From positions 1 through 24,958 of IMG/VR virus record IMGVR_UViG_3300035670_001180: 24,958 nt of DNA, one strand, 5' to 3'. Each line of letters begins with the position of its first letter. The stretch's first letter is position 1. The notes beneath the pieces were generated by a model that worked only from the letters and a program-made list of their open reading frames with translations, was not told the origin of the DNA and ran no database searches. The position numbers and the translations under genes are program-made. Below, in pieces: positions 7,808 through 22,004 of this stretch. This stretch comes from a virus.

Positions 7808-7877
7808 CGTAGACGGTGGACGGTAGACCGTGGACCGTCCACCGTCCACTTTTCACCTTTCACTTTCCACGGTCCAC
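7808..7877 (+). repeat. Intergenic heptad array 1 (10 units, all ending in AC)
   Basis: Exactly ten consecutive 7-bp units, each ending in AC. The left units are of the type GGTGGAC/GGTAGAC, the right ones CGTCCAC/TTTTCAC/TTTCCAC. The strand switches from purine-rich to pyrimidine-rich in the middle, giving hairpin potential (GTGGAC-C-GTCCAC at the switch). It fills most of the spacer before the decoration gene. Confidence 0.85.
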
Positions 7878-7917
7878 TATCGCACAACCTTTCCTTTCTG
7901 AAATCGGAGATACGAAC

Positions 7918-8886
7918 ATGAGCGAAGCGCTCCTGGAAAAAGATTCGGACGTGATCGACGTGACCACGCCCACCGCCGGCTACAGTTCCGGCGAAGTCAT
8001 CCAATTGGCGGACGGCCGCGCCGCCGTGGTGCAGGGCCTGTCGGCCCGCGTCTCGGGCGACAAGGCCGGCCTCAAGACCTCGGGCCAGGTCCGCTTGGCC
8101 AAGACGGCCAGCGTGGTCATCCTGCCCGGCGGCCGGGTCTACTGGGACCGCTCGGCGAACACCGCCACGCCGCTGCAGATCGCGGCCGGTGCCGACTTCT
8201 TCGTCGGCGTGGCGCCCGAGGGCGCGGCTTCGGCGGCCACCACCGTGCTCGTGGATCTGAACGCCAAGCCGAAGTACCTCACGAGCCTGGGCGAAGGCGG
8301 CTTCGACTGCGTGCCCGTGCTCACCGCCGGAACGCTGTTCGTCGGCGATCGCGGCGGCGAGTTCACCGTGGCCTGCTCGGCCACGGCCGAGGCCCAGAAG
8401 GGCGACCTCCTGAGCCGCAAGAGCGTGCCCGTCACGGTCCCCATGATCTTCGAGTGCATCTTCCAGGTGGTCACCACGGCAGACGCCGACGTGGCCGATC
8501 TGTCGGTGGGCCTGGCCAACGCCACACACGCCTCGGATGCGGACTCGATCACCGAGTCGGCCCTCTTTCACGCCGACCTTGGCGCGGACCTGAACCTGGA
8601 CGCCGAGAGCGACGACGGCACGACCGAGGTCGCCGCCACGGACACCACCGTGGACCTGGTGGCCGGCACGGATATCGAGGTCTGGCTGGACGCCCGCGAT
8701 TTGACCAACGTCAAGTACTACGTCAACGGCGTGGAGGTGCTTTCGGCCACGGCGAACCTGGGCAACATCGCCGCCGCCGCCGGCCCGCTGAAGGCCCTCT
8801 TCCACCTGGAGAAGAGCGCCAACGATACGCTGTGCGAGGTGAAGTGCCGCCACCTGGCGATCCGCGCCACCGACCAGGCGAGCTGA
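7918..8886 (+). CDS. Head decoration-type protein (DUF2190-like) with beta-sandwich extension
   Basis: 322 residues. The first 110 or so (EVIQLADGRAAVVQG, GQVRLAKTASVVILPGGRVYWD, FFVGVAPEGA) match the small beta-rich DUF2190-type proteins that follow capsid genes and are thought to decorate or stabilise the capsid. The remaining 190 residues look like a concanavalin/laminin-G type beta-sandwich: alternating strands, Asp-rich loops and VWLDARDLTNVKYYVNGVEV. A longer frame begins at 7816, but its first 34 residues are translated heptad repeat. The ATG at 7918 is preceded by CGGAGA, so it was chosen. A surface-exposed binding domain on the capsid is my inference. Confidence 0.65.
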   Translation: MSEALLEKDSDVIDVTTPTAGYSSGEVIQLADGRAAVVQGLSARVSGDKAGLKTSGQVRLAKTASVVILPGGRVYWDRSANTATPLQIAAGADFFVGVAPEGAASAATTVLVDLNAKPKYLTSLGEGGFDCVPVLTAGTLFVGDRGGEFTVACSATAEAQKGDLLSRKSVPVTVPMIFECIFQVVTTADADVADLSVGLANATHASDADSITESALFHADLGADLNLDAESDDGTTEVAATDTTVDLVAGTDIEVWLDARDLTNVKYYVNGVEVLSATANLGNIAAAAGPLKALFHLEKSANDTLCEVKCRHLAIRATDQAS

Positions 8887-8895
8887 ACGAAGTCC

Positions 8896-8965
8896 AGAGT
8901 CGAGGGTTGAGAGTTGAGAGCAGGATCTGCTCGGGCTCTCGACTCTCGACTCTCAACCCTCCACT
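8896..8965 (+). repeat. Intergenic heptad array 2 (10 units)
   Basis: Seventy bases, ten 7-bp units in one register. The left units are of the type AGAGTCG/AGGGTTG/AGAGTTG, the centre is GAGCAG-GAT-CTGCTC (6-bp stem), and the right units are CTCGACT/CTCAACC/CTCCACT. The arms are largely complementary, for example GAGGGTTGAGAGT with ACTCTCAACCCTC. It ends three bases before the next start codon and leaves that gene without an SD sequence. Confidence 0.85.
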
Positions 8966-8968
8966 CCT

Positions 8969-9343
8969 ATGCCCAGTCTCGCGGACAGCGACTTCGACGC
9001 CTGCGAAGACCTCCTGGCCGAGGTCTTCGGGGTTTCGGTCACGGTCACGCGGGGCGCGGGCACCTGTGTGATTTCCGCCCGGGTGGTGGATCACGACATC
9101 GAGGCCGCGGACGCCGAGGGCGCGGCCTACATCGAGATCGGCGCCCGGACCTATCTGGTCCGCCGCGACGATTACGCCCCCGCCGGCAGTGCCTCCGAGC
9201 CGGCCGAGGGCGACACGATCACCGAGATCGTGGCCGGCGAGACCCGCGTGCAGGCGGTGCTGCCGGCCAGCGGAGAAGGCCGATCCTCGGAGGCCGACAC
9301 CACGGGCGAGTGGCTCGTGGTGTATACGAAGCGCATCAGTTGA
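8969..9343 (+). CDS. Head closure/head-tail attachment protein candidate
   Basis: 124 residues, small, acidic and mostly beta, lying between the decoration protein and other neck/tail genes, where head-closure (lambda gpFII-like) proteins are found. Features: N-terminal acidic helix (SLADSDFDACEDLLAEVFG), then strands, with GARTYLVRRDDY near the middle and a final WLVVYTKRI strand. There is no SD: the start is preceded by a pyrimidine-rich heptad array. The assignment is by position and fold impression only. Confidence 0.45.
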   Translation: MPSLADSDFDACEDLLAEVFGVSVTVTRGAGTCVISARVVDHDIEAADAEGAAYIEIGARTYLVRRDDYAPAGSASEPAEGDTITEIVAGETRVQAVLPASGEGRSSEADTTGEWLVVYTKRIS

Positions 9344-9427
9344 GAGTCGAGGGTTGAGAGTCGAGAGCCAAAAAGGTCCTCAACTCTCCACTCTCCACTC
9401 TCAACTTTCAACCCTTAACGCACAACT
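9343..9427 (+). repeat. Intergenic heptad array 3
   Basis: Four left units (AGAGTCG, AGGGTTG type), a short A-rich switch, then seven right units (CTCAACT, CTCCACT, TTCAACC type), with a one-base register slip in the centre. It runs from inside the preceding stop codon (TGA 9341-9343) to three bases before the ATG at 9431. Confidence 0.82.
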
Positions 9428-9430
9428 CCC

Positions 9431-9745
9431 ATGCTCAGCGAACCCGTAGGCTCCGGCAAGATCACCTCCGGCACGAAGACCGTCACGGCTTCGGCCACGC
9501 CCGAGGCCCTGGTCTCCAGTTCCACGCCATGCCGGGGCGTGCTGCTGGCCGCGCGAACCACGCAGAACACAGGGGCCGCGGCCAACACCAACCCGGTGTT
9601 CGTGGGCGACGCGGCGGCCCAAAAGATGCCCATCCCAGTGGCCGCGGTGCAGCCCACGGTGTACCTGGCGGTGGACGATGCGGCGAAAGTCTACGTCCGC
9701 GCCATCACGAACGGGGACGGCGTGGAGTACATCATTTTCCTGTAG
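9431..9745 (+). CDS. Small beta-rich virion protein, function unknown
   Basis: 104 residues. The layout (TSGTKTVTASATPEALVSS, then CRGVLLAARTTQNTG, then NPVFVGDAAA, then VYLAVDDAAKVYVRA and YIIFL) is a small beta-sandwich pattern seen in many phage structural genes, often near receptor-binding or decoration genes. No enzyme motif is present. There is no SD; the leader is pyrimidine-rich heptad repeat. A capsid or tail accessory protein is the most I can say. Confidence 0.5.
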   Translation: MLSEPVGSGKITSGTKTVTASATPEALVSSSTPCRGVLLAARTTQNTGAAANTNPVFVGDAAAQKMPIPVAAVQPTVYLAVDDAAKVYVRAITNGDGVEYIIFL

Positions 9746-9767
9746 TCCGAAAGGAAACGACGCGACC

Positions 9768-9905
9768 ATGATCACGAATCCCAATCCCCTGTCCATCGGC
9801 ACTGCGTCCGGCCTCTGGCTGGCGAGTGCTGACATTTCCCGCCTGCGTGTGGCGATCACGGCTATATCGTTTAATGGCGAGAGAAACGTGAGGTCTAAGA
9901 CATGA
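9768..9905 (+). CDS. Short hypothetical protein, possibly a truncated remnant
   Basis: 45 residues starting MITNPNPLSIGT. AAGGAAA lies about 13 bases upstream. It overlaps the next start (ATGA at 9902). The first half uses GC-rich codons like its left neighbour and the second half is AT-richer like its right neighbour. It may therefore be the front of a structural gene cut off when the following low-GC block was inserted. Whether it is translated is uncertain. Confidence 0.4.
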   Translation: MITNPNPLSIGTASGLWLASADISRLRVAITAISFNGERNVRSKT

Positions 9906-10888
9906 TTACCAGCATTCGTAACGGCAATTGGGGAGACACGGTTCCCGCTACTTCACCCTGGCCTAGCGGCACCGTGCCGACAGCCAGTGATGACGTGACC
10001 GTTGCTCACGAGATCAATCTTCCCAACGGGACGGCAGCGCACGTCAAGAGCCTGACCTTCTACGGTGCTGAGGCGGAGTCGCCGCACATCATCCCTGGCG
10101 CGGGAACGAGTTCAATGGAGGTGGACAATGACCTCGTTGCCGCGAGCACCCCCAACCGCAATCCCGATCTCTTTGACGTGGCTGACGGAGGCACATTCAC
10201 CTTGACCGTGAGTGGTCGAATCCTGAACAACAGCCAAGGGCCAGTCGTCTACAACGTGGGCAGCGCCACGATTGTAGTCAACTGCCCTTACGCGGATTGT
10301 AGCGACGAAGGTAGCATCTACGAGAATGGAAATGCAGCCACCATCGACGTGACCATAAACGTGGACGAAGTTCACATGCGGTCGAATCCGGCGCTCGGGC
10401 TCGGCAACCTCGACTGCACTGGTACGGTGGTGTTCAACGGTGATTACTACCTAGAATCCACTGCGATGAGCGATGATCCACCGGCCACCACGAACGGCAT
10501 GGAGGCGGGAGTTTTCATGGCGGCGGCAGCGAGTTTTCCCACTCGCCGTCCTGTTCTCACCATCAATGGCGACATCCACATCGGCGCGTATGGCACGGGG
10601 TTATACACGACGGCGCTGTTTTTGGCCGGCGCACACGGCACCATCACACACAACGGCGATCTTGTGCTTGACGCGCCGTGTCCGCAATTCGTGTTCAACG
10701 TGGCTTACGGAGATTTGACCGGCATCCTGACGTTGAACGGTAATCTGCAGATCGGCTCTGATTATGTGGCGAAGACTGCCGTGGCTGCCGCCGCAAACGT
10801 GCGAAGCGGAATAGGCCGCTGGACGGGAGCGACCGTCCCGGACGTGGGCACGCTGGTTGCGGGTGGCGTGGTGCTGGCGGGAGTTTAG
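9902..10888 (+). CDS. Beta-rich repetitive surface protein (G8/beta-helix-like), possible fiber or spike
   Basis: 328 residues. It opens with NGNWGDTVPATSPWPSG and DDVTVAHEI, the pattern of G8-like and related extracellular beta proteins (an NGNW/DDVTV motif). It continues with regularly spaced strands such as LTFYG, FTLTVSGRI, ATIVVN, VVFNGDYY, LTINGDIHIG and LTLNGNLQIG, which suggests a right-handed beta-helix. No catalytic residues were recognised. Codon GC is lower than in the head genes. Host-surface binding or capsid fiber is a guess. The start is chosen by an ATGA overlap with the preceding short gene, with GAGG about nine bases upstream. Confidence 0.5.
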   Translation: MITSIRNGNWGDTVPATSPWPSGTVPTASDDVTVAHEINLPNGTAAHVKSLTFYGAEAESPHIIPGAGTSSMEVDNDLVAASTPNRNPDLFDVADGGTFTLTVSGRILNNSQGPVVYNVGSATIVVNCPYADCSDEGSIYENGNAATIDVTINVDEVHMRSNPALGLGNLDCTGTVVFNGDYYLESTAMSDDPPATTNGMEAGVFMAAAASFPTRRPVLTINGDIHIGAYGTGLYTTALFLAGAHGTITHNGDLVLDAPCPQFVFNVAYGDLTGILTLNGNLQIGSDYVAKTAVAAAANVRSGIGRWTGATVPDVGTLVAGGVVLAGV

Positions 10889-10900
10889 AGGGAGACAGAT

Positions 10901-11653
10901 ATGGCACTAACGCTTTCGCAGGAAGACATCGCAGCCATCCAGGCGGAAGGGCACCCGCTGGGCATCAAGCTGGTGTGCGATGATTTCGTCGTTTCGCCCA
11001 TGTATTGGGTGCCGCGCGGAATTTATGGCGGCAAAGTGTGCTTCGGGAGTTCTTACGCTGACGGTCCGCTCGGCGCGCTCGAGCAGGGACTGCGTTGGGA
11101 TACCGAAAACGAAGAGTGGGTTCTGTCCGAAGGAGTCAATACCTGGAATAGCGGCAGGATCGTCAACGAGTACGAACATCTGGCTGGACCTGGCTCAGCT
11201 ACGGCCGAAGTGTTTCACGTCGGCTTGGACGAGATCGCCGACGCGGTTGCCGCCGAACTGGCCGCCTCGCTGACCGTGACCACCCCCGTGGCCGCCACCA
11301 CCGAGGGCGGGACCGTGGGCGACCCGCTACGGATCACCACCTGGCAGCACACGCGCCTGCAGGTGCTGCTGACGATCGAGGACGCCCAGGGCGTGGACGT
11401 GGACCTTTCCGGCCACGACCTCTCCATGCTGATCTACGACAAGGCCGCTCCGGACACCGTGATCGCCGAGTGGACGACGGGCGCGGAACTCACCGCAGGT
11501 CTGGGCACGCTGGCGATTGATGCTCCGGCCACGGACACGGCCGACGCCGGCGACTTCCTGTTCGTGATCCGCGACAACGGCAGCGACGACACCATCTGGG
11601 CCCACGGAAGCCTCAAAATCAAACCCGCTCCGGACACCCCGGCGGCCCCATAA
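10901..11653 (+). CDS. Structural protein with BppU-like C-terminal beta domain
   Basis: 250 residues with two unlike halves. Residues 1-105 (HPLGIKLVCDDFVVSPMYWVPRG, WNSGRIVNEYEHLAGPG) are coded in moderate-GC sequence like the gene before. Residues about 110-250 return to very high GC and form a beta domain (TRLQVLLTIEDAQGVDVDLSGHDL ... GDFLFVIRDNG ... WAHGSLKI) resembling the N-terminal baseplate domain of BppU-type proteins. GAGGGAGA precedes the ATG by about six bases. The composition break near 11220 suggests a recombination join inside the gene. Role: neck, baseplate or fiber attachment, not resolved. Confidence 0.5.
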   Translation: MALTLSQEDIAAIQAEGHPLGIKLVCDDFVVSPMYWVPRGIYGGKVCFGSSYADGPLGALEQGLRWDTENEEWVLSEGVNTWNSGRIVNEYEHLAGPGSATAEVFHVGLDEIADAVAAELAASLTVTTPVAATTEGGTVGDPLRITTWQHTRLQVLLTIEDAQGVDVDLSGHDLSMLIYDKAAPDTVIAEWTTGAELTAGLGTLAIDAPATDTADAGDFLFVIRDNGSDDTIWAHGSLKIKPAPDTPAAP

Positions 11654-11660
11654 CTGGGAA

Positions 11661-11690
11661 CACTAATCCACACTAATCGCCACTAAGACA
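11661..11690 (+). repeat. Decamer repeat CACTAATNNN, three units
   Basis: CACTAATCCA, CACTAATCGC and CACTAAGACA follow each other in the 53-base spacer before the GTG at 11707. The period is 10, not 7, but the placement at a gene junction is the same as for the heptad arrays. Confidence 0.7.
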
Positions 11691-11706
11691 GACGGCAGAC
11701 AGACCC

Positions 11707-12141
11707 GTGTACGACGTTTCCCTCCCCATCGCCGACGCCATCGTAGACGCCTTGAGCGCCCACGATTTCGGCGTTTCCCTCTCCGTATCGCGGGAGTGGA
11801 ACCCGGAGCGGAAGATGGCGGATGGGGACCTCGACGATGCGGTGGTGTACCTCACCCCGCGCGATGCCTCGGAGAACCGCATGGGCGGCGAGGTGGCAAA
11901 CCCCGAGCGGCGGCGGGAGATCGGCATTGATCTGACCTTCCTGCAGCGAGTGGACACCAGCGACGCGGAGGCGGTGGACGCCCTGGCGGAACTCTCCGCC
12001 GAGATACACGATTACGCCACCGCGGCCGCCCGCTACGGGGCCACCTGGCGAAGCACCAGCATGACTCAGGACGAGCAGCGGCTGCGACACCACGGCGTGT
12101 TCCAGCGCCGCTACGCCATCCAGTGGAACCATTTCGATTAG
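11707..12141 (+). CDS. Tail terminator/neck protein candidate
   Basis: 144 residues starting at GTG. The layout is that of small phage neck proteins: N-terminal amphipathic helix (LPIADAIVDALSAHDFG), then strands (SLSVSREWNP, DDAVVYLTPRD), an Arg-rich loop, and REIGIDLTFLQRV followed by a long helix (EAVDALAELSAEIHDYA). This is the arrangement of tail-terminator and minor tail U-like proteins. It lies next to an HK97 gp10-like gene, which is also usual. No ATG is available in frame near the start. Direct sequence similarity was not tested. Confidence 0.5.
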   Translation: MYDVSLPIADAIVDALSAHDFGVSLSVSREWNPERKMADGDLDDAVVYLTPRDASENRMGGEVANPERRREIGIDLTFLQRVDTSDAEAVDALAELSAEIHDYATAAARYGATWRSTSMTQDEQRLRHHGVFQRRYAIQWNHFD

Positions 12142-12142
12142 C

Positions 12143-12158
12143 GGATTGACGGATTGAC
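12143..12158 (+). repeat. Tandem octamer GGATTGAC x2
   Basis: Two perfect copies in the 27-base spacer after the stop at 12141 and before the ATG at 12169. It is a third repeat type at a gene junction. Confidence 0.65.
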
Positions 12159-12168
12159 CGAGGGCCCG

Positions 12169-12762
12169 ATGGGCGACCAGTTTTCATTTTCACTGACCGG
12201 CGAGAAAGAGATCCAGGAGGCGCTTCGCGCCTTGCCGGAGAAGATGCAGCTCTACGCCATCGAGCCGGGCGTGCGCAAGGCGAGTCAGGTCATCGCCAAG
12301 GCTATGCAGGCTGGTGCGCCTTGGCGGACCGGGCTCCTCAAAAAGTCCATCGGCGCAATACGCCCGAAGATCTACTACGCCCGCCACACGGTATACTGCG
12401 CGGTGGGTCCGCGGCGTGGATTCGGCAGGATTTTGGTGCGTGGCCCATCAGGCGTAAAGGCCGTCACAGAGAAGAAGGCGGCGAAGTATGCCGCCAGCGG
12501 GAACTGGCGTGCCCGCATCAATCCGGCCCGCTACGCGCACATCATTGAAGCCGGCCGCAGAGCCGTGGTGCCTGTGAAACGCAAGGCGCTGACCATTGTC
12601 GGAGATTCCGGCGTCACGGCATTACGGAAGACATCGCGCGCAGTCGCCGCATTTCCCTTCATGGCCCGGGCGCTGGCCTCGTCCCGCGCCGCGGCCTTCG
12701 AGGCCCTCCGCGCCGGCATCCAGGACGGCCTGGCCAAACAACTCACCAAACTCACGAAGTAG
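12169..12762 (+). CDS. HK97 gp10-like tail completion protein
   Basis: 197 residues. GEKEIQEALRALPEKMQ, then a long helix with ASQVIAKAMQAGAPWRTGLLKKSIG, then PARYAHIIEAGRR and, near the end, AFPFMARALASSRAAAFEAL form the typical order of the HK97 gp10 family. These proteins join or complete the tail end at the neck. The ATG at 12169 is preferred; an in-frame TTG at 12154 lies in the octamer repeat. The family match is fairly clear. The middle insertion with RGFGRILVRGPSG is somewhat longer than usual. Confidence 0.72.
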   Translation: MGDQFSFSLTGEKEIQEALRALPEKMQLYAIEPGVRKASQVIAKAMQAGAPWRTGLLKKSIGAIRPKIYYARHTVYCAVGPRRGFGRILVRGPSGVKAVTEKKAAKYAASGNWRARINPARYAHIIEAGRRAVVPVKRKALTIVGDSGVTALRKTSRAVAAFPFMARALASSRAAAFEALRAGIQDGLAKQLTKLTK

Positions 12763-12775
12763 CAGGAGCACGATC

Positions 12776-13141
12776 ATGGGAAAAGGATGGGACGGGACCT
12801 CAGCCAGCTTCACGCCGGACGGCGGCGCGGCGGTAACCATCGAACCGCTGCGAGGCACCGACGCCAACTCCTCGGCCCGCGAGGCCGACGTGGGCGGCTC
12901 CGGAGATGACTACGTCAAGAGCCGCGTGGGCCGCTCGGACAAAAGCATCACGCTGGAGTTCGCCGGCTCGAAGATCGGGACGCTGGACGTGGGCGACGTG
13001 GGGGCCCTGGAAGTGGACCTTAACGACGGCGAGGACCGCGATTACGCCAACTGCGCCATCGCCGAGATCAGCGTGGAGGGCTCGCTGGACGGGCCCACGA
13101 CCGGCTCCATGACCTTCGTCAAGACGGTCGCTCCTCCCTAA
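12776..13141 (+). CDS. Tail tube-type protein A
   Basis: 121 residues. GKGWDGTSASFTPDGG begins the chain; SRVGRSDKSITLEFAGSKIGTLDVGDVGALEVDL follows, and GSLDGPTTGSMTFVK closes it. It is clearly related to the next gene, with shared positions KG-(W/F)-(D/N)-GT, EADVGG/KADVGG and LDG-x-x-T-x-(S/T)-(M/I)-TF. Small beta-barrel proteins just before the tail chaperone genes are normally the major tail (tube) proteins. AGGAG at 12764-12768 gives a good SD seven bases before the ATG, so upstream in-frame starts were not used. Confidence 0.6.
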   Translation: MGKGWDGTSASFTPDGGAAVTIEPLRGTDANSSAREADVGGSGDDYVKSRVGRSDKSITLEFAGSKIGTLDVGDVGALEVDLNDGEDRDYANCAIAEISVEGSLDGPTTGSMTFVKTVAPP

Positions 13142-13151
13142 AGGCTGGGCA

Positions 13152-13200
13152 AGAGTACAGAGTCGAGAGTACAGAGTTGAGGGTTGAGAGTTGAGAGAGG
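13152..13200 (+). repeat. Intergenic heptad array 4 (7 units)
   Basis: Seven units in perfect register of the types AGAGTAC, AGAGTCG, AGAGTTG, AGGGTTG and AGAGAGG. Only the purine-rich strand orientation is present. The final unit supplies AGAGAGG as the SD for the ATG at 13210. Confidence 0.85.
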
Positions 13201-13209
13201 AAAACAATC

Positions 13210-13551
13210 ATGGCAGACAAGGGTTTTAACGGCACCACGGTCACCTTCGCCGGCAGCGGGCTCACACCCCTGGTGAGCGTCCGCTATCAGGCCAGCGCGG
13301 CTAAGGCCGACGTGGGCGGCGCGGCCGACACGGACATCCTTTACGAGCTGGCCCGCGTGAAACGCACCACCACGGTCACCATCAAGGGCGCCACCACGAT
13401 CGCCGACGGCGCCACTGGGGCCCTGGTCGTGGCCCATAACGACGGCGGCTCGAAAGGCTCCATCGCCGCGGCCATCGTCACGGGCACGCCGGTCTCCGGC
13501 AAGCTGGACGGGGAGATCACGTCTACGATAACGTTTACCGACGCCGGCTAA
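13210..13551 (+). CDS. Tail tube-type protein B (paralogue of the preceding gene)
   Basis: 113 residues: KGFNGTTVTFAGSG at the start, KADVGGAADTDILYELARVKRTTTVTIKG in the middle and KLDGEITSTITFTDAG at the end. Alignment by eye with the preceding protein spans the whole length, so the two genes came from one duplication. One may be the tube subunit and the other a capping, initiator or alternative subunit. A purine-rich heptad array provides the SD (AGAGAGG). No Ig-like decorating domain is present. Confidence 0.6.
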   Translation: MADKGFNGTTVTFAGSGLTPLVSVRYQASAAKADVGGAADTDILYELARVKRTTTVTIKGATTIADGATGALVVAHNDGGSKGSIAAAIVTGTPVSGKLDGEITSTITFTDAG

Positions 13552-13592
13552 GAGTCCACAGTTGAGAGTCCAGAGTTGAGGGTTCAGAGATG
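13551..13592 (+). repeat. Intergenic heptad array 5 (6 units, stop codon to start codon)
   Basis: Six units (AGAGTCC, ACAGTTG, AGAGTTG, AGGGTTC and AGAGATG types). The first unit begins at the last base of the TAA stop and the last ends with the ATG start, so the array is the whole spacer. Confidence 0.85.
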
Positions 13593-13964
13593 AGCACACT
13601 GAGTGAAGCGATACGCGGCAGCACGCCGCCGGCAAACGTGGCCGTGCCAACGCCGGAATGGCCCGAGGCCGATGGCAAGCTGTTCGCCGAGCGGGCCACC
13701 ATGAAGCGGCTGGGCACGATGTACGAGGCCATCCGCGACGACAAGCAGTTGGCCGACGTGCCCTTCAGCGTGGCGGCGGTGATCAGCCTGGCGGTGGACG
13801 CCGAGGGCCATCGCGTGTTCTCCGCGGCCGACGCCGCCTGGCTGGCCGGCGAGTCGTGCGCAGCCCCCGTGCGGCGGCTGTGGGGCGTAATCGACGAAGT
13901 CAACGCGATCTCCGACCAGAGCCGGGAGATCCTCCGAAAAAACTCCGAGACGACGCCCGCCTGA
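13590..13964 (+). CDS. Tail assembly chaperone, short form (gpG-like)
   Basis: 124 residues, acidic and helical, with no SD other than AGAG. Position between tail tube and tape measure, size, and the frameshift signal near its end identify it as the short tail assembly chaperone that wraps the tape measure during tail assembly. The zero frame ends TTPA and stops at TGA 13962-13964, which lies in the loop of the downstream hairpin. Most ribosomes would make this form. Confidence 0.75.
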   Translation: MSTLSEAIRGSTPPANVAVPTPEWPEADGKLFAERATMKRLGTMYEAIRDDKQLADVPFSVAAVISLAVDAEGHRVFSAADAAWLAGESCAAPVRRLWGVIDEVNAISDQSREILRKNSETTPA

Positions 13965-14260
13965 GGCGTCACCTGGCCATCGCCCGGGAGTTCGGCTTCC
14001 CGCGGCTGGCACAACTGTACGAGGCCGTGCCGGACCCGCGGGAGTTCGCACTGCTGGAAGAGGACTGGAAACGAAACCCGGGAGGCCCGGAACGCGACAA
14101 CCTGCACGCCGCCCAGATCATCCAGGCGATTTTGGCGGCCAGCGCCAAGAAGTTCAACATCCCGCGGCTGGATCGGCTGGTGTTGAAGCGGCGGGAGAAG
14201 GCGGACGAGGAGGAAGAGGTCCGTGAGGCGGCGGCGAAACTCGACGCGATCAAGTGGTAG
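13590..14260 (+). CDS. Tail assembly chaperone, -1 frameshift product (gpGT-like)
   Basis: Reading moves to the -1 frame at A AAA AAC (13937-13943). The fused product is join(13590..13943, 13943..14260), 223 residues. The extension (LRDDARLRRHLAIAREFG ... KKFNIPRLDRLVLKRREK) is basic and helical, as expected for a T domain that contacts tail tube and tape measure. No good start codon with SD precedes the second frame, which supports expression only by frameshift. The G-to-GT arrangement is a conserved feature of long-tailed phages. Confidence 0.78.
13937..13970 (+). promoter_or_regulatory. Programmed -1 ribosomal frameshift signal
   Basis: Slippery heptamer A AAA AAC (13937-13943) in the right phase, an eight-base spacer, then a perfect stem GACGCC (13952-13957)/GGCGTC (13965-13970) with a seven-base loop that contains the zero-frame stop. 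Confidence 0.85.
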
Positions 14261-14302
14261 AAGGTGGATCGTGGGAAGTAGAAAGTAGGAAGTAGCACGT
14301 GG
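14254..14302 (+). repeat. Intergenic heptad array 6 (7 units, stop codon to start codon)
   Basis: Units of the type GTGGTAG, AAGGTGG, GAAGTAG, AAAGTAG and CACGTGG. The first unit ends in the TAG stop of the chaperone fusion and the last contains the GTG start of the tape measure. Confidence 0.8.
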
Positions 14303-15477
14303 CAAGCGTAGGCACCCTAAAAGCTGATGTCGTCGTCAACTCCGAGGGGGCCGTCGCCGGCATGCGCAAAGCCGAGCAGGCCGTCAGCGGCGGGGCCAGC
14401 CGCATCCGCTCCAAGCTCAACGAGATGGCCTCGACAAAATCCATCGTGGAAGAGCAGATCGCCAAGGGCGGTTGGAACGCGGCCAGATTCCGGCCGGGTG
14501 CCATCGGCGGAAAAGTGGGAGGCGGCGCGGCCGGTGGCGGACTTCGCCCGGAAATGATCGAGCGCCTGCAAAGCATGGGCGGATTCCTGGGCATGCAAGG
14601 GGCTGCCGGCGGGGCCGGTCAGCTTGCCAAGTTGGGCATGACCTTCGGCCTGGGAGGCCTGGGCGCCGGGGCCGGACTGGCGGCCGTGGGCGGGCTGTAT
14701 GCCGGAATCAACTCCTCGGGCGAAGAGGCCAAGAAACAGATTGACCAGGCCCGGCAACTAGGCCTGAGCGTCAACGAGTTTGCCAAAGCGGCCGAGTTCG
14801 CGGGCGGAAACTCGGACCAGCTCAAAGAGGTGGCCGAATCGCTGAAGCGCCTGGCCAGCGAGGGGCCCAACGCGGCCGCCGGCCTGAAGGCCCTGAGCGA
14901 CCAGGTGGGATCGATGTCCGGCGGCAAATCCGGCGACGACCTGATGGTCGCCGCCAACCGCATGGACGTCATGAACGAGCGGCTTTCGGGCTTCAAGGTC
15001 GGCGTGGTGGAAAAGCTCGGCAACGCCGTGGACTGGCTGGGAGAGTGGTACAACGGCGAGGAGCACGGATCGGCACGGGCCACGCGGATCCAGCAGGAGA
15101 AATGGAAAAGCGGACAGGCGTGGCTGAGTGAGCAGCGCGCCGCCGGCAACGCCACGGCCAAGGACATTATGCGTCCCGAGGAGAAGCTCCGCGAGAAATT
15201 GGGAGCCCTTCAGGACCAGCTCCTGGTCGGCGCGATCACTCAGGACCAGTGGCAACGCGCGGCGGACAAGGCCCGCAAGGATTCCGGTATGGAAAGCACC
15301 GGATTTGCAGGCCTGGCCGAGGTGGGCAGCCAGGAAGCCTACGCGGCCACCATCGCGGCACAGTACGGCGACGAGGGCGTGGGCCACCTCCGCTCCATCG
15401 AGCAGCACCTTGCGAACATCGACGCCCGCGGCCATGGCCTCGGCCCGGGCGACCCAGGAAAGGCGGTGGATTTCTGA
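14299..15477 (+). CDS. Tape measure protein (short)
   Basis: 392 residues from GTG. It sets tail length and is ejected with the DNA. N-terminal part: VGTLKADVVVNSEGAVAGM then helices. A Gly/Ala-rich hydrophobic segment (about 95-140, FLGMQGAAGGAGQL ... GLAAVGGLYAGI) is the expected membrane-inserting region. Charged amphipathic helices follow (IDQARQLGLSVNEFAKAAEF, VAESLKRLAS). At roughly 0.15 nm per residue the tail would be near 60 nm, which is short for a long-tailed phage. GGA in the heptad array is the only SD. It ends in a TGATG overlap with the next gene. Confidence 0.72.
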   Translation: MASVGTLKADVVVNSEGAVAGMRKAEQAVSGGASRIRSKLNEMASTKSIVEEQIAKGGWNAARFRPGAIGGKVGGGAAGGGLRPEMIERLQSMGGFLGMQGAAGGAGQLAKLGMTFGLGGLGAGAGLAAVGGLYAGINSSGEEAKKQIDQARQLGLSVNEFAKAAEFAGGNSDQLKEVAESLKRLASEGPNAAAGLKALSDQVGSMSGGKSGDDLMVAANRMDVMNERLSGFKVGVVEKLGNAVDWLGEWYNGEEHGSARATRIQQEKWKSGQAWLSEQRAAGNATAKDIMRPEEKLREKLGALQDQLLVGAITQDQWQRAADKARKDSGMESTGFAGLAEVGSQEAYAATIAAQYGDEGVGHLRSIEQHLANIDARGHGLGPGDPGKAVDF

Positions 15478-16379: not shown

Positions 16380-16394
16380 GGACTGACCAAAACC

Positions 16395-16856: not shown

Positions 16857-16866
16857 CGAAGTCCCA

Positions 16867-17511: not shown

Positions 17512-17522
17512 GGGGACTCGCT

Positions 17523-18005
17523 ATGGGCCGCCGAAAATGCTGCTGTTGTGCCTGCTCGAATTGCGACGGCAGCACGCCCGCCTCGCTGGAATTGATTATG
17601 TCGGGCTGGACTAACTCTGTATGCACCAGTTGCGGCAACCTCAACGACACGTTCATTCTGGCCTGCGTCGAAGCCATACCAGACGCCGACGACTGCTTTC
17701 CAGAAAGCGACTGCGGATCAGAATGGGCTTACCTGTTTTCTGTACCGTTTTGTGACATCTACGGCATCTTCCTGAAACTCCTGTACACCGCAGACGGCTG
17801 GCCTTTCGGAAGCATCCCGGCCGGACACTACTACCTCCTCCTGCATATCGGATGCAGCGAGGAGGCTTACGAGTACTTCGTGCTGGACCTGGGCACGGAA
17901 AAGCCGGTGTGCTCTGAAGCCGCCTGGGATGCGTTCACTTACCTCGGCGGGTCAATATGCAACGGCGGCAGTTCGGTTGTGGTGAGCGTCTCCATCCCCA
18001 GTTGA
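17523..18005 (+). CDS. Cysteine-rich tail-tip/adhesin candidate
   Basis: 160 residues from the ATG at 17523 with GGGGGA upstream; a GTG at 17502 is possible but lies in the preceding gene. It opens with MGRRKCCCCACSNCDG and then VCTSCGNLNDTFILACV, with more Cys pairs further on (CFPESDC, FCDIYG, CSEEAYEY, CSEAAWD, ICNGG). The order Cys cluster, then SLELIMSG strand, then C-x-x-C-x-x-LN-x-TF-x-L resembles a family I associate with phage and planctomycete genomes, but I cannot name it. Dense cysteines suggest metal binding or disulfides in an exposed particle protein; host binding is a guess. Confidence 0.5.
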   Translation: MGRRKCCCCACSNCDGSTPASLELIMSGWTNSVCTSCGNLNDTFILACVEAIPDADDCFPESDCGSEWAYLFSVPFCDIYGIFLKLLYTADGWPFGSIPAGHYYLLLHIGCSEEAYEYFVLDLGTEKPVCSEAAWDAFTYLGGSICNGGSSVVVSVSIPS

Positions 18006-18012
18006 GACCACG

Positions 18013-18339
18013 ATGGACTGCACCTGCGAGCGAACGCCGGCCGGATGGAAATGCAATGCGTGCGGCTGGACCTACCACAAGCACACCGCGAAGCCCCCCC
18101 GCCGCAACTGCCCGAAGGCAGCGGGAACCTACGCCGAGCGACTAGCGTCCGAGGTAGACGCCCTGCTCTCCGCCCGGGCCACGGATCGCACGCGCGAGGA
18201 ACTCTTGGCCATCGGCAGCCAGTGCGAGGGCTGCTGGGATGGCGGCTGTCCCGAGGGCTCGCCCTGCCGGCGGCTGAAGCTCTGGCGGGAACGCCTGGCG
18301 TGCGGGCGGTGCGTGCGGTGGATTTCCCCGGACAGCTAG
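18013..18339 (+). CDS. Small Cys-rich protein, possible zinc binding
   Basis: 108 residues. N-terminal CTCERT and WKCNACGWTYH form one Cys group; a basic PRRNCPK follows, and the C-terminal part has CEGCWDGGCPEGSPCRR and CGRCVRW. Between them is a helix (TYAERLASEVDALLSARATDRTREELLAI). Two metal sites linked by a helix are likely. The start ATG lies eight bases after the preceding stop. It is the last plus-strand gene of the late block and overlaps the convergent membrane protein by four bases. Function unknown. Confidence 0.5.
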   Translation: MDCTCERTPAGWKCNACGWTYHKHTAKPPRRNCPKAAGTYAERLASEVDALLSARATDRTREELLAIGSQCEGCWDGGCPEGSPCRRLKLWRERLACGRCVRWISPDS

Positions 18340-18674
18340 CGGAGCTGATTTCCCGGGAAATGCTGATCTTCCCTCGCGACCTCGGCGGCCTCGGGCCGGA
18401 GCGTGGCCACACGTGGCGCGCGATCTTTCGCGATCTGTTTCTCGCGGAACTCCATCAAGGCCACCATCCTTTCCAGGCAATCGGTCTGCCGGATGGTCAT
18501 CTGCCGCATGTCTTTCACAGACAGGTAAAGATCGAGGAACACCGAGAAGGCGATGATCGCCACGAACGTATCCAGTGCCCGGCCCTGCAACACGGAGTAA
18601 AGTGCCCAGGAGCCCAGCAGAATGACAAGCACGATGCCGGCCAACACCTGCATGATGAACTTCACTACGGCCAC
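18336..18674 (-). CDS. Two-segment membrane protein on the minus strand
   Basis: 112 residues from GTG, with AGAGGAGGA seven to eight bases upstream on the minus strand, one of the best SD sites in the window. Two hydrophobic segments (about 6-27, FIMQVLAGIVLVILLGSWAL; about 35-52, TFVAIIAFSVFLDLYL) are followed by a charged cytoplasmic-type tail of 60 residues. Size and topology would suit a holin or a superinfection-exclusion protein, but no neighbouring endolysin is visible. It is transcribed against the late genes, which fits a prophage-expressed accessory gene. The 3' end of the gene contains the ATTTCCCGGGAAAT palindrome. Confidence 0.6.
   Translation of the reverse strand: MAVVKFIMQVLAGIVLVILLGSWALYSVLQGRALDTFVAIIAFSVFLDLYLSVKDMRQMTIRQTDCLERMVALMEFREKQIAKDRAPRVATLRPEAAEVAREDQHFPGNQLR
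18348..18361 (+). promoter_or_regulatory. Noc-binding-site-like palindrome ATTTCCCGGGAAAT (copy 1)
   Basis: Perfect 14-bp palindrome. With flanks, the 19-mer GCTGATTTCCCGGGAAATG (18344-18362 region) is shared with the copy inside the ParB-family gene, in opposite orientation. The 14-mer equals the published consensus of the Noc-binding site in Bacillus; activity here is not shown. Confidence 0.55.
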
Positions 18675-18858
18675 GGGTCAATCCTCCTCTGGGTCATTCC
18701 GCCTGCCATCATACTACGGCCGTCAATCGGTTTCCAGGCCGAACCACCCATTCACCCACTGAACGCTCGTCCATTCCTCGGCCCTCCCGCGTGCTTTTCT
18801 GGCAAGCATGGAAAAGAAACTCCCGATTCTTTTCCTCCCCCTCTCTTGGTGGAGTGAG

Positions 18859-18920
18859 AGACTAGGTTGGTGACCTAGTGTGCCTCGCGTGGTAGTTTGG
18901 GTAAAATGCCAACCTAGTCT
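18859..18920 (+). repeat. 12-bp inverted repeat with anticodon-arm look-alike
   Basis: AGACTAGGTTGG (18859-18870) is the perfect reverse complement of CCAACCTAGTCT (18909-18920). Its left arm also starts a local hairpin ACTAGG-TTGGTGA-CCTAGT (18861-18879) with the same stem and loop size as the tRNA-Leu anticodon arm 88 bases downstream, but a different loop. These could be integrase-binding sites. Confidence 0.6.
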
Positions 18921-18947
18921 TAGAAACCCCCACAAAAGGTGTAGCTG

Positions 18948-19006
18948 TCTAGGTTCAGGACCTAGTACCTGTAATGGGTGTGGAGGTTCAAGTCCTCTCT
19001 TCGGCA
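18948..19006 (+). other. 3' part of tRNA-Leu(CAG): probable phage attachment site core
   Basis: The anticodon arm CTAGG-TTCAGGA-CCTAG (anticodon CAG at 18956-18958), long variable region, T arm GGAGG-TTCAAGT-CCTCT (18982-18998) and acceptor strand CTTCGGC plus A (18999-19006) read as a normal tRNA-Leu end. The 5' partner GCCGAAG and a D arm are absent upstream, so this is not a working tRNA. A tRNA 3' part beside an integrase gene is the classic attP/attL/attR signature. Phage genes on both sides favour attP. Confidence 0.7.
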
Positions 19007-19034
19007 CTGATCACATACCACGGAGGATGGCGGC

Positions 19035-19241
19035 ATGAACGAGCCGGAAAAGATCGAAATCCTCGCGGAATACGAGGATCTGACGGGTAGGAATTGGGAT
19101 GCGGTCAAGGCCCTCGTCGCGCAAGGCGACCCGGCGGCCACGGCCATCTACGCCGCGGACCTGATCATCCGCAAGCTACAGGCCGGGCTTGCGGACCTTG
19201 AGGAATCGCTTGGAAAGGCTATTGCGGATCGTGAGAAATAG
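19035..19241 (+). CDS. Small hypothetical protein
   Basis: 68 residues, helical and acidic (MNEPEKIEILAEYEDL ... LIIRKLQAGLADLEESLGKAI). GGAGG at 19022-19026 lies eight bases before the ATG. It follows the tRNA fragment directly and overlaps a convergent minus-strand gene by 23 bases at its end. No family recognised; probably an early accessory gene. Confidence 0.55.
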   Translation: MNEPEKIEILAEYEDLTGRNWDAVKALVAQGDPAATAIYAADLIIRKLQAGLADLEESLGKAIADREK

Positions 19242-19521
19242 CCTTCGATACCCGCTGTTTTTCGGGCATCTCCGGGCACGCGATCCGCGGGCCTGCGACC
19301 AGCGTGTCGCCATCGCCGGGGTCGCTGGTCCCCCGCGATCCGATGACCCATACGCGGGCCTTCATGTACGGGGCCTTGCCCTCGGTCACCACCACGGCGT
19401 TGTAGCCCTCCGGCGGCGGTTCACAGTGCAGTTTCGCGGATTTGGAAAAATAGTACGCCCAGTAGGTGCCGGGCTTGGAGGGCAGGCGAAGCACCGTCTG
19501 CCGATGGTCTGAAGTCATCAT
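19219..19521 (-). CDS. Small hypothetical protein (PGTYWAYYF motif)
   Basis: 100 residues. KPGTYWAYYFSKS followed by EGYNAVVVTEGKAPYMKARVWVIG looks like a folded beta-rich domain of the kind found in many small phage proteins with PG-x-YWA near the N-terminus. AAGGAA lies seven bases before the first ATG on the minus strand. A competing plus-strand frame (19189-19512) lacks such signals. Function unknown. The start is only 22 bases from the divergent gene at 19544. Confidence 0.5.
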   Translation of the reverse strand: MMTSDHRQTVLRLPSKPGTYWAYYFSKSAKLHCEPPPEGYNAVVVTEGKAPYMKARVWVIGSRGTSDPGDGDTLVAGPRIACPEMPEKQRVSKAISHDPQ

Positions 19522-19543
19522 GGTTCGTTCCTTGGGGGTGAAA

Positions 19544-19711
19544 ATGGCTAGTGCTGCGAATGTGCGTAAGGCGATCTACGACGGACAGTGTGAGCCCGAA
19601 CAACTGCCAGATCTTGTCCGAGATCTGGCCGAAGTGCTTATGGCACTGGAAATGAAAGTGGACCAGCTTCAGCAAGACCTGGAAAGCGTCAGGTCTTCTT
19701 GCCGCGGCTGA
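19544..19711 (+). CDS. Small coiled-coil-type hypothetical protein
   Basis: 55 residues starting MASAANVRKAIYDG. The second half (LVRDLAEVLMALEMKVDQLQQDLESV) is one amphipathic helix. A G-run (19534-19540) precedes the ATG. A longer frame from 19466 runs into the divergent gene, so the short form is preferred. It overlaps the next minus-strand gene by 23 bases. Function unknown. Confidence 0.45.
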   Translation: MASAANVRKAIYDGQCEPEQLPDLVRDLAEVLMALEMKVDQLQQDLESVRSSCRG

Positions 19712-19877
19712 CCCGAGCGAGTTCAAAATGCAGAATCTCGAGCGCATCAATAGCAGTCGCCATCGCGTTTTCCAGGGCCGCCACGCGGGCCTCCAATGCC
19801 GAATGTTTGTACTCGTCGCGTCCTTGGTTGCCTACTCGGACGGCGGTGAGCCGCGCGAGCCGTTCAGTGTCAAGCAT
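19689..19877 (-). CDS. Small coiled-coil-type hypothetical protein, minus strand
   Basis: 62 residues from MLDTERLARLTAVRVGN. The middle and end (HSALEARVAALENAMATAIDALEILHFEL) are helical with heptad-like spacing. CAGGA stands about seven bases upstream on the minus strand. A start 45 bases earlier would extend into the control region of the XRE gene, so the shorter form is chosen. It is divergent from the XRE gene, as a regulated partner would be, but no family is recognised. Confidence 0.5.
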   Translation of the reverse strand: MLDTERLARLTAVRVGNQGRDEYKHSALEARVAALENAMATAIDALEILHFELARVSRGKKT

Positions 19878-19911
19878 CTCGTTTTCCTGTTTAGGGTTCA
19901 AGTGTAAGTTG

Positions 19912-19939
19912 TTGACAAACATATCTTATCTGCTATAAC
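19912..19939 (+). promoter_or_regulatory. Sigma70-type promoter of the XRE regulator
   Basis: TTGACA (19912-19917), 16-base spacer, TATAAC (19934-19939). The expected transcription start is about 19946, which is also the A of the first ATG, so the message may be leaderless. Confidence 0.7.
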
Positions 19940-19945
19940 TAGAGG

Positions 19946-20188
19946 ATGCAAGAAGCGATGATCAACACGGAGTTGCACGGCAGGTTTTGCAGGAATATCA
20001 GATCCCGCCGCTTGGAACTAGGACTTACTCAGGCCCAGCTTGCCGCAAAAATGGGCGTGCAACAGCCTATAATCGCTCGATTGGAAGCCGGCGGATCGGC
20101 TCCGACGCTCGACACGGTCGAGTCGGTTGCAAAAAGCCTTGGGCTGTCTCCTGAAGCTTTGTTTCTGCTTGATCCTGTCCTTGCTTAA
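19946..20188 (+). CDS. XRE/Cro-CI family transcriptional regulator
   Basis: 80 residues, nearly all one helix-turn-helix domain: FCRNIRSRRLELGLTQAQLAAKMGVQQPIIARLEAGG then TLDTVESVAKSLGLSPEALF. GLTQAQLAAKMGV is the helix 2-turn-helix 3 signature and PTLDTVESVAKSLG is the usual last helix. No oligomerisation or protease domain follows, so it is a small Cro-like or control-protein-like regulator, not a full CI repressor. It lies behind a consensus promoter and next to the integrase, which fits lysogeny control. A second ATG at 19958 is possible; GAGG stands 12 bases before it. Confidence 0.8.
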   Translation: MQEAMINTELHGRFCRNIRSRRLELGLTQAQLAAKMGVQQPIIARLEAGGSAPTLDTVESVAKSLGLSPEALFLLDPVLA

Positions 20189-20201
20189 GAATTTTTCTTA
20201 A
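20185..20201 (+). other. AT-rich palindrome TTAAGAA-TTT-TTCTTAA
   Basis: Perfect seven-base arms overlapping the stop codon of the XRE gene. It could be a weak hairpin at the message end or an operator for a dimeric regulator; it lies eight bases before the -35 box of the next promoter. The GC-poor stem and lack of a following T-run argue against a standard terminator. Confidence 0.45.
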
Positions 20202-20208
20202 AGCCCTC

Positions 20209-20237
20209 TTGACGGGAAATAGCAAACTTGATATATT
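20209..20237 (+). promoter_or_regulatory. Sigma70-type promoter upstream of the integrase leader
   Basis: TTGACG (20209-20214), exactly 17 bases, then TATATT (20232-20237). The predicted start is near 20244, giving a leader of about 218 bases before the integrase ATG. Confidence 0.65.
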
Positions 20238-20239
20238 TA

Positions 20240-20390
20240 GCCGTTATCGCTGAAGACAGCGGTAGCGGCATTCTGAGCCGGCAGGTCTGCCGGAGTCCAG
20301 GTGCCGTTTCCAAGGACGGTCCGAACGGAAGCGTTCGGCCACGACGGCACCAATGGCGTTCTATAGTTTACCAATCCGGGGTTATGGATT
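20240..20390 (+). ncRNA. Serial hairpin leader before the integrase (unassigned structured RNA)
   Basis: Four stems follow the promoter: (1) GCCG/CGGC enclosing CGCTG-AAGA-CAGCG, 20240-20269; (2) CCGGCAG-GT-CTGCCGG, 20278-20293; (3) GGTGCCGT/ACGGCACC (20300-20351) enclosing CCGAACG-GAAG-CGTTCGG (20321-20338); (4) AATCC/GGATT, 20373-20390. No match to a riboswitch class that I know. It could be a regulatory RNA, a leader controlling integrase, or a protein-binding DNA region. Remaining bases to 20461 hold one more weak stem (20401-20415). Confidence 0.45.
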
Positions 20391-20461
20391 CTCGTTAGTA
20401 GCCCGCACAGTGGGCCACTGCGTGAAACCCGGAACGGTTGGCAGCCCCCAGAGAACGCACC

Positions 20462-21406
20462 ATGATTGCAGCACCGACGAGCCTGGCCTCGTTTCTGGAC
20501 TCGGACTATTCACGCGGCCGCTGGCTGGACCGCAAGACCATCCAGCAGATGCGGATCTCGGTCACGCTTCTGGACCGCTGGGCAGCCCAGGCCGGGCACC
20601 GCTCGCCCATTGCCCTCCACGATCTGACTGGCGGCATGGTGGTGGACTGGATGACCTGGCTGGCGGAGAACGGCCGGTCCGCCAAGACCGTCAACAACAA
20701 ACGCGGCGACGTGCTGGTGCTCTGGCGGGAAGCATGCAGACAGGGCAAGACCGGGCCGGCCGAAGAGGTCCGCAAGATGCCGGAGCCCCAACGCGAGCCG
20801 GTGGCCTGGCAGCTTTCCGAGATCGAGGCCATCTTTGCCGCCTGCAACGATCTTTCCGGCTACTGGCAGGACGTTCGGCGGTCGCTGGCGTGGAAGATCG
20901 GACTCTTGGTATTTTGGGACACCGGCTGTCGGCTGGCGGAACTTCTGGAGGCCAAGCTGGCCCACGTGCGGCTGGCGGATTCCGCGCTCTTCGTGCCGGC
21001 CGAGCACCGCAAGGGATCGCGGGGCCGGCGGAAGGATCGCGTCTATCCGCTGCACCCGCAGACCATGGACGTGATCCGGGCTTCGCTGCCCTCGCGGCGG
21101 GAGATGCTCTTTCCCTTCCCGTGGAAGCGGCGGCAGATCTGGGCACACCTCAAACGGATTTTGCGGGCGGCCGGCCTGCCCGCCGATCGCACGCACATGT
21201 TTCACTGCCTGCGACGGTCCGCCGAGTCCTACGCCGCCAAGGAACGCGGCGTGCAGTGGGCGGCCGAGGCGATCGGCCACACCCCCAGCGTGGCCCGCAA
21301 GCACTACGTCTCGCTCTCCATCGCGCCCGGCCCGCGGCTGATCGACGCACTACCTCGGCCCGCATTCTCGGCGATCAACGACGGCCGGCAACTCTCGATG
21401 TTCTAG
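20462..21406 (+). CDS. int: Tyrosine-family integrase
   Basis: 314 residues. It would insert the phage at its attachment site and help excise it. Catalytic set in order: R157 in DTGCRLAEL, a beta-hairpin Lys near RRKDRV, H248 and R251 in HCLRRS, H273 in AIGHTP, and the nucleophile Y282 in RKHYV. The N-terminal 110 residues are a SAM-like core-binding domain (LLDRWAAQAGHRSPIALHDLTGGMVVDWMTWLAENGRSAKTVNNKRGDV). There is no long arm-binding domain, so it resembles XerC/D-size enzymes. The ATG at 20462 is preferred; an in-frame TTG at 20438 adds eight residues. SD is weak (GAGA). The tRNA-Leu fragment 1.4 kb upstream is the likely target. Confidence 0.88.
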   Translation: MIAAPTSLASFLDSDYSRGRWLDRKTIQQMRISVTLLDRWAAQAGHRSPIALHDLTGGMVVDWMTWLAENGRSAKTVNNKRGDVLVLWREACRQGKTGPAEEVRKMPEPQREPVAWQLSEIEAIFAACNDLSGYWQDVRRSLAWKIGLLVFWDTGCRLAELLEAKLAHVRLADSALFVPAEHRKGSRGRRKDRVYPLHPQTMDVIRASLPSRREMLFPFPWKRRQIWAHLKRILRAAGLPADRTHMFHCLRRSAESYAAKERGVQWAAEAIGHTPSVARKHYVSLSIAPGPRLIDALPRPAFSAINDGRQLSMF

Positions 21407-21446
21407 CATCGCCGGCACGCTCGGCCTCGCAGCAAGGAGGCCGGCC

Positions 21447-21665
21447 GTGAACGACTCCACCACCATCCCCGCCACGCCCTGGTTCTACGCGGTCGTGCTG
21501 CCGGATGCGAACCGCGTGCTGTACAAGGGCCAGAGCCTGGCCTCGGCCGCCAGGTGCCTCAAGCCCGGCGCGTGGCACGGTCGCGGGCTCACCATGGCCG
21601 AGGCCTGCCTCAACGCCTGGCGGGCGGCCGCACAGACAACACTAGAAGCAGGAGATGCAGTATGA
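21447..21665 (+). CDS. Small hypothetical protein
   Basis: 72 residues from GTG, with a very good SD (AAGGAGG, 21434-21440). Reads TPWFYAVVLPDANRVLYKGQSLASAARCL ... MAEACLNAWRAA. A compact alpha/beta domain is likely. No family recognised. It overlaps the next gene (ATGA at 21662) and so belongs to the same early operon. Confidence 0.55.
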   Translation: MNDSTTIPATPWFYAVVLPDANRVLYKGQSLASAARCLKPGAWHGRGLTMAEACLNAWRAAAQTTLEAGDAV

Positions 21666-21919
21666 CCACGGAAGGAATCATGAGCACAGACGAACGGATT
21701 CAACGCGCGGACGAGCTGCTCCAGGAGAGCCTGGGCTACCTCGTGGAGAACCGCCGCGGCATGGCGAAGATCTGCCTGATGGAGGCCCTGGGCCACGTCC
21801 AGGCCATCCGGGAGGTTAGTGTCGCCGGCGACACGAAGACCGTAACCGAGAAGCACCAACCAAATCACCTGGCCTTGCCGCACGTCGTCGTCGCCACAAC
21901 ACACGGATGGGACACCTGA
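21662..21919 (+). CDS. Small hypothetical protein
   Basis: 85 residues, start coupled to the previous stop (ATGA) with GGAG seven bases upstream; a second ATG at 21680 is possible. The first 55 residues are helical (DERIQRADELLQESLGYLVENRRGMAKICLMEALGHVQAI); the C-terminal tail is disordered. No family recognised. Probably an early phage accessory protein. Confidence 0.5.
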   Translation: MTTEGIMSTDERIQRADELLQESLGYLVENRRGMAKICLMEALGHVQAIREVSVAGDTKTVTEKHQPNHLALPHVVVATTHGWDT

Positions 21920-21920
21920 G

Positions 21921-22004
21921 AGAACACGTAGAACGTGGACGGTAGAACGTAGAACGTACACCGCCCACTTTCCACTTTCCACCTTCCACTTTCAACTGAC
22001 CACT
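21921..22004 (+). repeat. Intergenic heptad array 7 (12 units)
   Basis: Eighty-four bases, twelve units in one register. Left units are GTAGAAC/GTGGACG, right units TTCCACT/TTCCACC/TTCAACT. It again switches from purine-rich to pyrimidine-rich and ends three bases before the ATG at 22008, leaving that gene without an SD. Confidence 0.85.

Follow-up and report, generated by a model that had tools for sequence, protein, structure and literature searches.

The window analysed here is an entire virus record of 24,958 bp (IMGVR_UViG_3300035670_001180), in which a terminase, a lambda-type portal, a capsid/protease, a cement protein, neck and tail proteins and ParB are encoded. The subject of this study is a set of eight arrays of degenerate seven-base units (heptads), seven of which fill spacers between these genes and had been pointed out in a preliminary description of the sequence. 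The arrays and the two genes around the first of them are given below with their identity at a lag of seven bases (lag-7) and, in part, the z-score of their predicted fold; ORF stands for open reading frame and HTH for helix-turn-helix.

5386–7800, plus strand: capsid/head maturation protease gene (phrog_4523, PF25209), 5′ of the first array
7808–7877, no strand: two-armed array in the capsid/cement spacer, GTAGAC/GTGGACG then GTCCACC/CACTTTC; lag-7 0.76 versus 0.26 in shuffled sequence
7918–8886, plus strand: head decoration/cement gene (PF09956, phrog_122) with a heptad array on either side; homologues align from residue 1
8896–8965, no strand: two-armed hairpin, AGAGTTG ... CAACTCT, 3′ of the cement gene; lag-7 0.57
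9343–9427, no strand: two-armed hairpin between ORFs 8969–9343 and 9431–9745; lag-7 0.63
13152–13200, plus strand: one-armed purine-rich array, AGAGTTG/AGAGTAC, 5′ of ORF 13210–13551; lag-7 0.76; unfolded, z +1.2
13551–13592, plus strand: one-armed array into the ATG of ORF 13590–13964, which is tail assembly chaperone-like (phrog_344); lag-7 0.63; z +0.45
14254–14302, plus strand: one-armed array, AAGTAGG/GTGGTAG, between ORF 13658–14260 and ORF 14299–15477; lag-7 0.67; z 0
21921–22004, no strand: two-armed array, GTAGAAC ... TTCCACT, 5′ of ORF 22008–23003; lag-7 0.70; imperfect hairpin, z −1.8
24462–24507, plus strand: eighth array (TTCAACTCTCAACTC...), in-frame in parB and C-terminal to the HTH domain; found in the lag-7 scan

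The lag-7 identity of the seven intergenic arrays ranges from 0.57 to 0.76 compared to a mean of 0.25–0.32 in dinucleotide shuffles, and for every one of them 0 of 2,000 shuffles reached the observed value. Across the whole window, 258 positions possess a lag-7 identity of at least 0.6 versus 0–14 in shuffles; lag 7 was the highest among the lags 3 to 15 tried, and its multiple, lag 14, gave 213 such positions. The runs of period seven reported for the seven spacers and the difference in units between arrays were borne out, and the tandem-repeat search with period 7 that had been proposed as a check (Tandem Repeats Finder, TRF) recovers the arrays independently. Other details did not hold. Whether the spacers comprise whole numbers of heptads, two of them being exactly 70 bases long, depends on the ends that are chosen, and the distances from stop to start (117, 82, 87, 68, 38, 38 and 88 nt) include no multiple of seven; the array at 14254–14302 overlaps the 3′ end of ORF 13658–14260 and the one at 13551–13592 the start codon at 13590. 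That these spacers are among the few real gaps is correct only in part, as further gaps exist, e.g. 11654–11706 and the short 12142–12153. According to TRF, word repeats of 8–10 bp (ACACTAATC, CGGATTGA) that are not heptads are present there, at 11654–11706 and 12142–12158.

Four of the arrays (7808, 8896, 9343 and 21921) are two-armed, with a purine-rich arm at the 5′ side and a pyrimidine-rich, approximately complementary one at the 3′ side. Since these four possess two arms, the register said to be kept throughout an array has no single meaning in them, and the purine/pyrimidine character, which had likewise been described as kept, inverts from one arm to the other. The predicted fold is strong at 8896–8965 (−44.8 kcal/mol, z −4.4) and 9343–9427 (z −5.7), with 0 of 200 shuffles equal in either case, weaker at 7808–7877 (perfect inner stem of 13 bp, z −1.96 overall) and 21921–22004, and absent in the three arrays of the tail region. 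Terminator-like sites, i.e. a GC-rich stem with a T run, are found on none of the arrays and avoid them. An Rfam search of the window returned nothing above threshold, a miRNA-model match at 9338–9406 being sub-threshold (E 0.68), and a search of elements in four other loci returned nothing above threshold either. A conserved palindrome or core common to the window arrays, as it is typical of repetitive extragenic palindromic (REP) sequences and bacterial interspersed mosaic elements (BIME), was not found.

The order of the arms is not restricted to the window. Hairpins with a score of at least 12 in 199 array regions from all loci have the purine arm first in 171 cases, the reverse order in 4 and a neutral one in 24, while random 100-bp windows contained no such hairpin (0/400). 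Inverted pairs of the same unit family in two heptad-rich genomes of the phylum Planctomycetes, G039 and G163, are arranged (+,−) in 49 cases (GAGAGTT) and 46 cases (AATTAAC); the order (−,+) did not occur. Purine-first order is a sharp regularity, and any proposed mechanism must account for it. Different unit families can carry the same core in these two genomes, including hybrids. The palindromes concerned (loci L046–L050 and L136–L149) measure ~110–170 bp, are centred around CGCTTCGCG or GCGCGAAGCGC and GTGGAGTTT, and carry heptad arms of various families; an example of a hybrid is L049:10887–11009.

Among related phages the arrays are distributed patchily. Homologues of the cement gene were obtained from 12 viral loci; a nucleotide search of phages with the window gave zero matches, and a search for ParB relatives in viral contigs found none. 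The collinear relatives L010, L012–L018, L021 and L129 are free of arrays (0 period-7 regions in ~110 kb). Phage L010 has a cement identity of 77% and zero arrays, whereas L011, at 62%, harbors nine at the matching capsid/cement, cement/next and subsequent junctions, built from other units (AACCCCG, CCAATGA, GTAGTGG). L128, which was found via a tail gene, possesses ~17 array regions in 12 kb, including the composite element (AGGGATT)n-(CCCTGAA)n-(AATCCCC)n at at least six gaps; L129 shares its gene order and has no arrays, and the search for a close relative of L128 found only L128 itself. Comparison of the window with L011, L128 and L219 reveals different units at the same junctions. Turnover is also apparent between L011 and L219, which have 91% cement identity and are collinear over 9.5 kb: one L011 hairpin is replaced by non-repetitive sequence in L219, one arm is present in one phage and absent in the other, and one array is longer.

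The only chromosomal relative of the terminase that we found is located in JAKFUG010000009.1, a metagenome-assembled genome (MAG) of the Planctomycetaceae (31% identity), and for this reason a planctomycete is the likely host of the phage. The MAG contains 129 matches to the GAGAGTT pattern (≤3 mismatches), a number whose built-in control is weakened by the mirror-like character of the pattern. With ≤2 mismatches the pattern occurs in 19 of 246 genomes of the phylum, two of which have 329 and 654 matches, and further genomes are characterised by different units (CCAATGA in G088 and G152, GTAGAAC in G251 and G148), so that the same unit families are present in chromosomes and phages. Assignment of a host by unit match was tried and rejected: GTAGAAC is found in 5 of the 246 genomes, G138 has both units in few copies, and none was named.

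Densities were taken from unbiased stretches, some other chromosomal stretches having been partly selected for matches. Most genomes have 0–20 period-7 regions per 100 kb and G039 and G163 ~100, while the phage contigs reach 48 (window), 85 (L011) and 143 (L128). The stretches read in G039 and G163 contain ~100 armed palindromes, many with a common core, and lag-7 identity rises up to 1.0 in chromosomal and L011 arrays. On the basis of plain longest-ORF gene calls, the occupancy of gaps in these two genomes is 0.58–0.74 for divergent, 0.58–0.71 for tandem and 0.40–0.61 for convergent neighbors, and only 39 of 219 arrays in G039 and 59 of 239 in G163 have most of their length within ORFs of at least 100 amino acids. 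Occupancy shows no orientation preference; a terminator, leader or promoter role by gap type was hence rejected, and a leader or terminator is unlikely as a general role.

We consider it probable, at roughly 0.6, that the gaps hold degenerate heptad elements resembling the short tandemly repeated repetitive (STRR) sequences, which are common to some planctomycete chromosomes and phages and which invade and turn over. The equal filling of gaps, the absence from close relatives and the unit change at fixed sites together argue for tolerated invaders of gaps and against signals serving the downstream gene. In the full element, a hairpin, purine-rich heptads would be followed by a short core and then by units of the same family in inverted, pyrimidine-rich form, and one-armed arrays may represent partial elements or precursors. 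Most insertions in genes would be harmful, which would let the elements pile up in gaps, while an in-frame linker as in ParB could be tolerated. Acquisition probably occurred by DNA exchange between host and phage, followed by copying from gap to gap in the same genome. The arrays would then be expanded and altered by replication slippage and the replacement of units, leaving related phages with unlike heptads, or with no array at all, at corresponding junctions. The two-armed arrays of the structural operon are predicted to form stable RNA hairpins, which may stand in for the ordinary GC-rich hairpins seen after the cement gene in other relatives.

Several observations weigh against this interpretation. 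Element ends, target duplications or a mobilising enzyme were not found, none of the window arrays is directly identical to any named host locus, and the host was not identified. The counts of 171 to 4, like those of the inverted pairs in G039 and G163, are not independent, because copies within one genome share ancestry, and thus overstate the independent evidence for polarity. Moreover, arms belonging to the same element do not clearly resemble each other more than arms taken from separate elements: a permutation test detected no excess likeness for GAGAGTT in G039, and in the other three sets it was weak at best (p 0.01–0.08). As own arms barely exceed permuted ones, fold-back copying and compensatory co-evolution of the arms were rejected. 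In one array of the L011/L219 pair every aligned unit shows the same T/C change with the order of GAG and GGG kept, which is hard to achieve via slippage; it is L011:5898–5968 versus L219:7380–7432, where GTAGTG became GCAGTG. The same pair served for the alignment of related phages that the preliminary description had suggested. The flanking genes are indeed collinear and the spacers change fast, but not in the steps of seven asked about, since the indels measure, for instance, 9, 10, 22, 26, 31 or 37 nt; simple unit slippage is hence insufficient. A further-reaching proposal, namely that heptad-armed hairpins constitute a distinct dispersed element class of planctomycetes and their phages, with interchangeable 7-mer families on purine-first arms, unit replacement and spread by copying, is tentative and in our view rather doubtful.

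Alternatively, the arrays could be selected intra-operon RNA hairpins, i.e. partial terminators, pause sites or 3′-end stabilisers tuning the expression of the capsid, cement and next genes, with the heptads as mere raw material. The site 3′ of the cement gene speaks for this, as it carries a heptad-built hairpin in the window (z −4.4) and L011 (z −7.1) and hairpins of unrelated, GC-rich sequence at the same place in L012, L013 and L021 (z −3.9, −3.0 and −4.6). A purine-first order would also yield a weak hybrid of pyrimidine RNA with purine DNA (rY:dR) at the 3′ arm, regardless of direction. L010, L016–L020 and L219, however, have no heptad hairpin there, three window arrays are unfolded, the arrays lack a U-tract and any terminator-like match, divergent gaps are filled alike, and the arms do not clearly co-vary. 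Hence, we judge this explanation unlikely for the arrays at large. With five phages possessing a hairpin after the cement gene, two heptad-built and three GC-rich, a secondary RNA role of the predicted hairpins at this position of the structural operon is plausible.

A true mobile element moved by a transposase, e.g. of the Y1 type or a REP-associated tyrosine transposase (RAYT), appears improbable. The earlier suspicion of a small mobile repeat is supported in part, by the composite repeated at many gaps of L128 and by the ~100 armed palindromes of G039 and G163, many of them core-sharing, which resemble REP/BIME and miniature inverted-repeat transposable elements (MITE) in being dispersed, intergenic and palindromic. 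In contrast to REP/BIME and MITE, their arms consist of heptads whose families are interchangeable, and copy number gives no link to a RAYT. Inverted arms as in MITE are present, but terminal duplications, a mobilising gene or a clean empty site were not found, the gaps aligned between L011 and L219 being irregular, and the window arrays have no conserved core. Y1_Tnp genes number 1 in G039 and 2 in G163 versus 11 and 10 in the heptad-poor G114 and G078, and reverse transcriptases do not track heptad load either, G163 having none; judged by copy number, neither is supported as the spreading agent.

Even less probable are translational leaders or other start-associated signals, in which the arrays would supply ribosome-binding or standby sites to the downstream gene. 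The one-armed purine-rich arrays at 13152, 13551 and 14254 do end a few bases from a start, with GAGAGG/GGAAG near, and TAACTGA heptads adjoin starts upstream in a Beggiatoaceae genome (PMC4679880). The array at 9343 and that of the matching L128 junction, both directly before starts, are pyrimidine-rich, however, array-free relatives have the same genes, and arrays occur in divergent gaps and convergent ones alike, so this suggestion of the preliminary description was not supported. Its idea of recombination linkers, border repeats kept for promoting modular exchange, is the least likely of all: the arrays do lie at head and tail gene junctions and repeats common to genomes could seed recombination, but array-free relatives keep the gene order, no junction swap could be traced to an array, and homology between phages would be poor because their units differ.

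The nearest parallel to the elements that we favor are the STRR heptanucleotide repeats of heterocystous cyanobacteria, for which Vioque reportedly described in 1997 that close relatives carry unrelated heptads in the P12 helix of their RNase P RNA, which points to recent and independent invasions. Both systems share 7-bp tandem units, in the window clearly above chance, as well as unit replacement at one site in relatives, and the location is mainly intergenic here, too, with 7 of 8 window arrays between genes. Unlike STRR, the present elements occupy gaps of phages and planctomycetes, their units are degenerate and, in the window, not (near-)identical copies, their hairpins have a fixed polarity, and one genome holds many unit families.

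The GGGNATC heptamers of Xanthomonas and Nostoc are over-represented in intergenic regions, variable in copy number and transcribed, but consist of one G-rich unit with a four-copy preference tied to G-quadruplexes instead of two-armed hairpins of many units (PMC4692102). The TAACTGA repeats of Beggiatoaceae are intergenic, near starts and taxonomically patchy, with no mechanism known; they differ in their single fixed unit, defined orientation to the start codon and only one inverted case (PMC4679880). Borg repeats are likewise fast-evolving tandem repeats of extrachromosomal DNA, yet they are reported to be virtually absent in host genomes, whereas the heptads share their unit families with chromosomes (PMC9879509). 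Heptamers are over-represented in bacteria, and the reason for the preference for seven bases has remained unexplained since a 2007 study cited in the same work on GGGNATC (PMC4692102). Heptad repeats as such have already been described in cyanobacteria, Xanthomonas and Beggiatoaceae; their arrangement as hairpins of fixed polarity, the unit "dialects" and the sharing with phages represent a novel form of them, and an incomplete literature search found no report of hairpins with heptad arms from planctomycetes or from phages infecting them. As a given junction holds an array in some phages and none in others, and chromosomes are either saturated or near-empty, gain, loss and unit replacement can be compared directly. 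If host lineages indeed have their own heptads, the repeats could help to assign uncultured phages to hosts.

The product of parB matches the Pfam families ParB_N and HTH_ParB. TRF additionally detected two repeats of another word within genes:

22729–22755, plus strand: CACGGAG-type word repeat within ORF 22008–23003
24075–24115, plus strand: CACGGAG-type word repeat within parB

Several genomes of the phylum are rich in CACGGAG, G051 having 266 matches, and the word often forms inverted pairs ~100–180 bp apart there. The small ORF 3256–3672 between terminase and portal begins with GWIYVLLDPRTNLARYVGQT, which by eye resembles a GIY-YIG nuclease. L015:39–2041 contains two tandem cement homologues (55% and 39% identity), and the genes at 12776 and 13210 of the window are adjacent, homologous and tail-tube-like, as are those at L128:5535–6345, an apparent tandem duplication in both phages.

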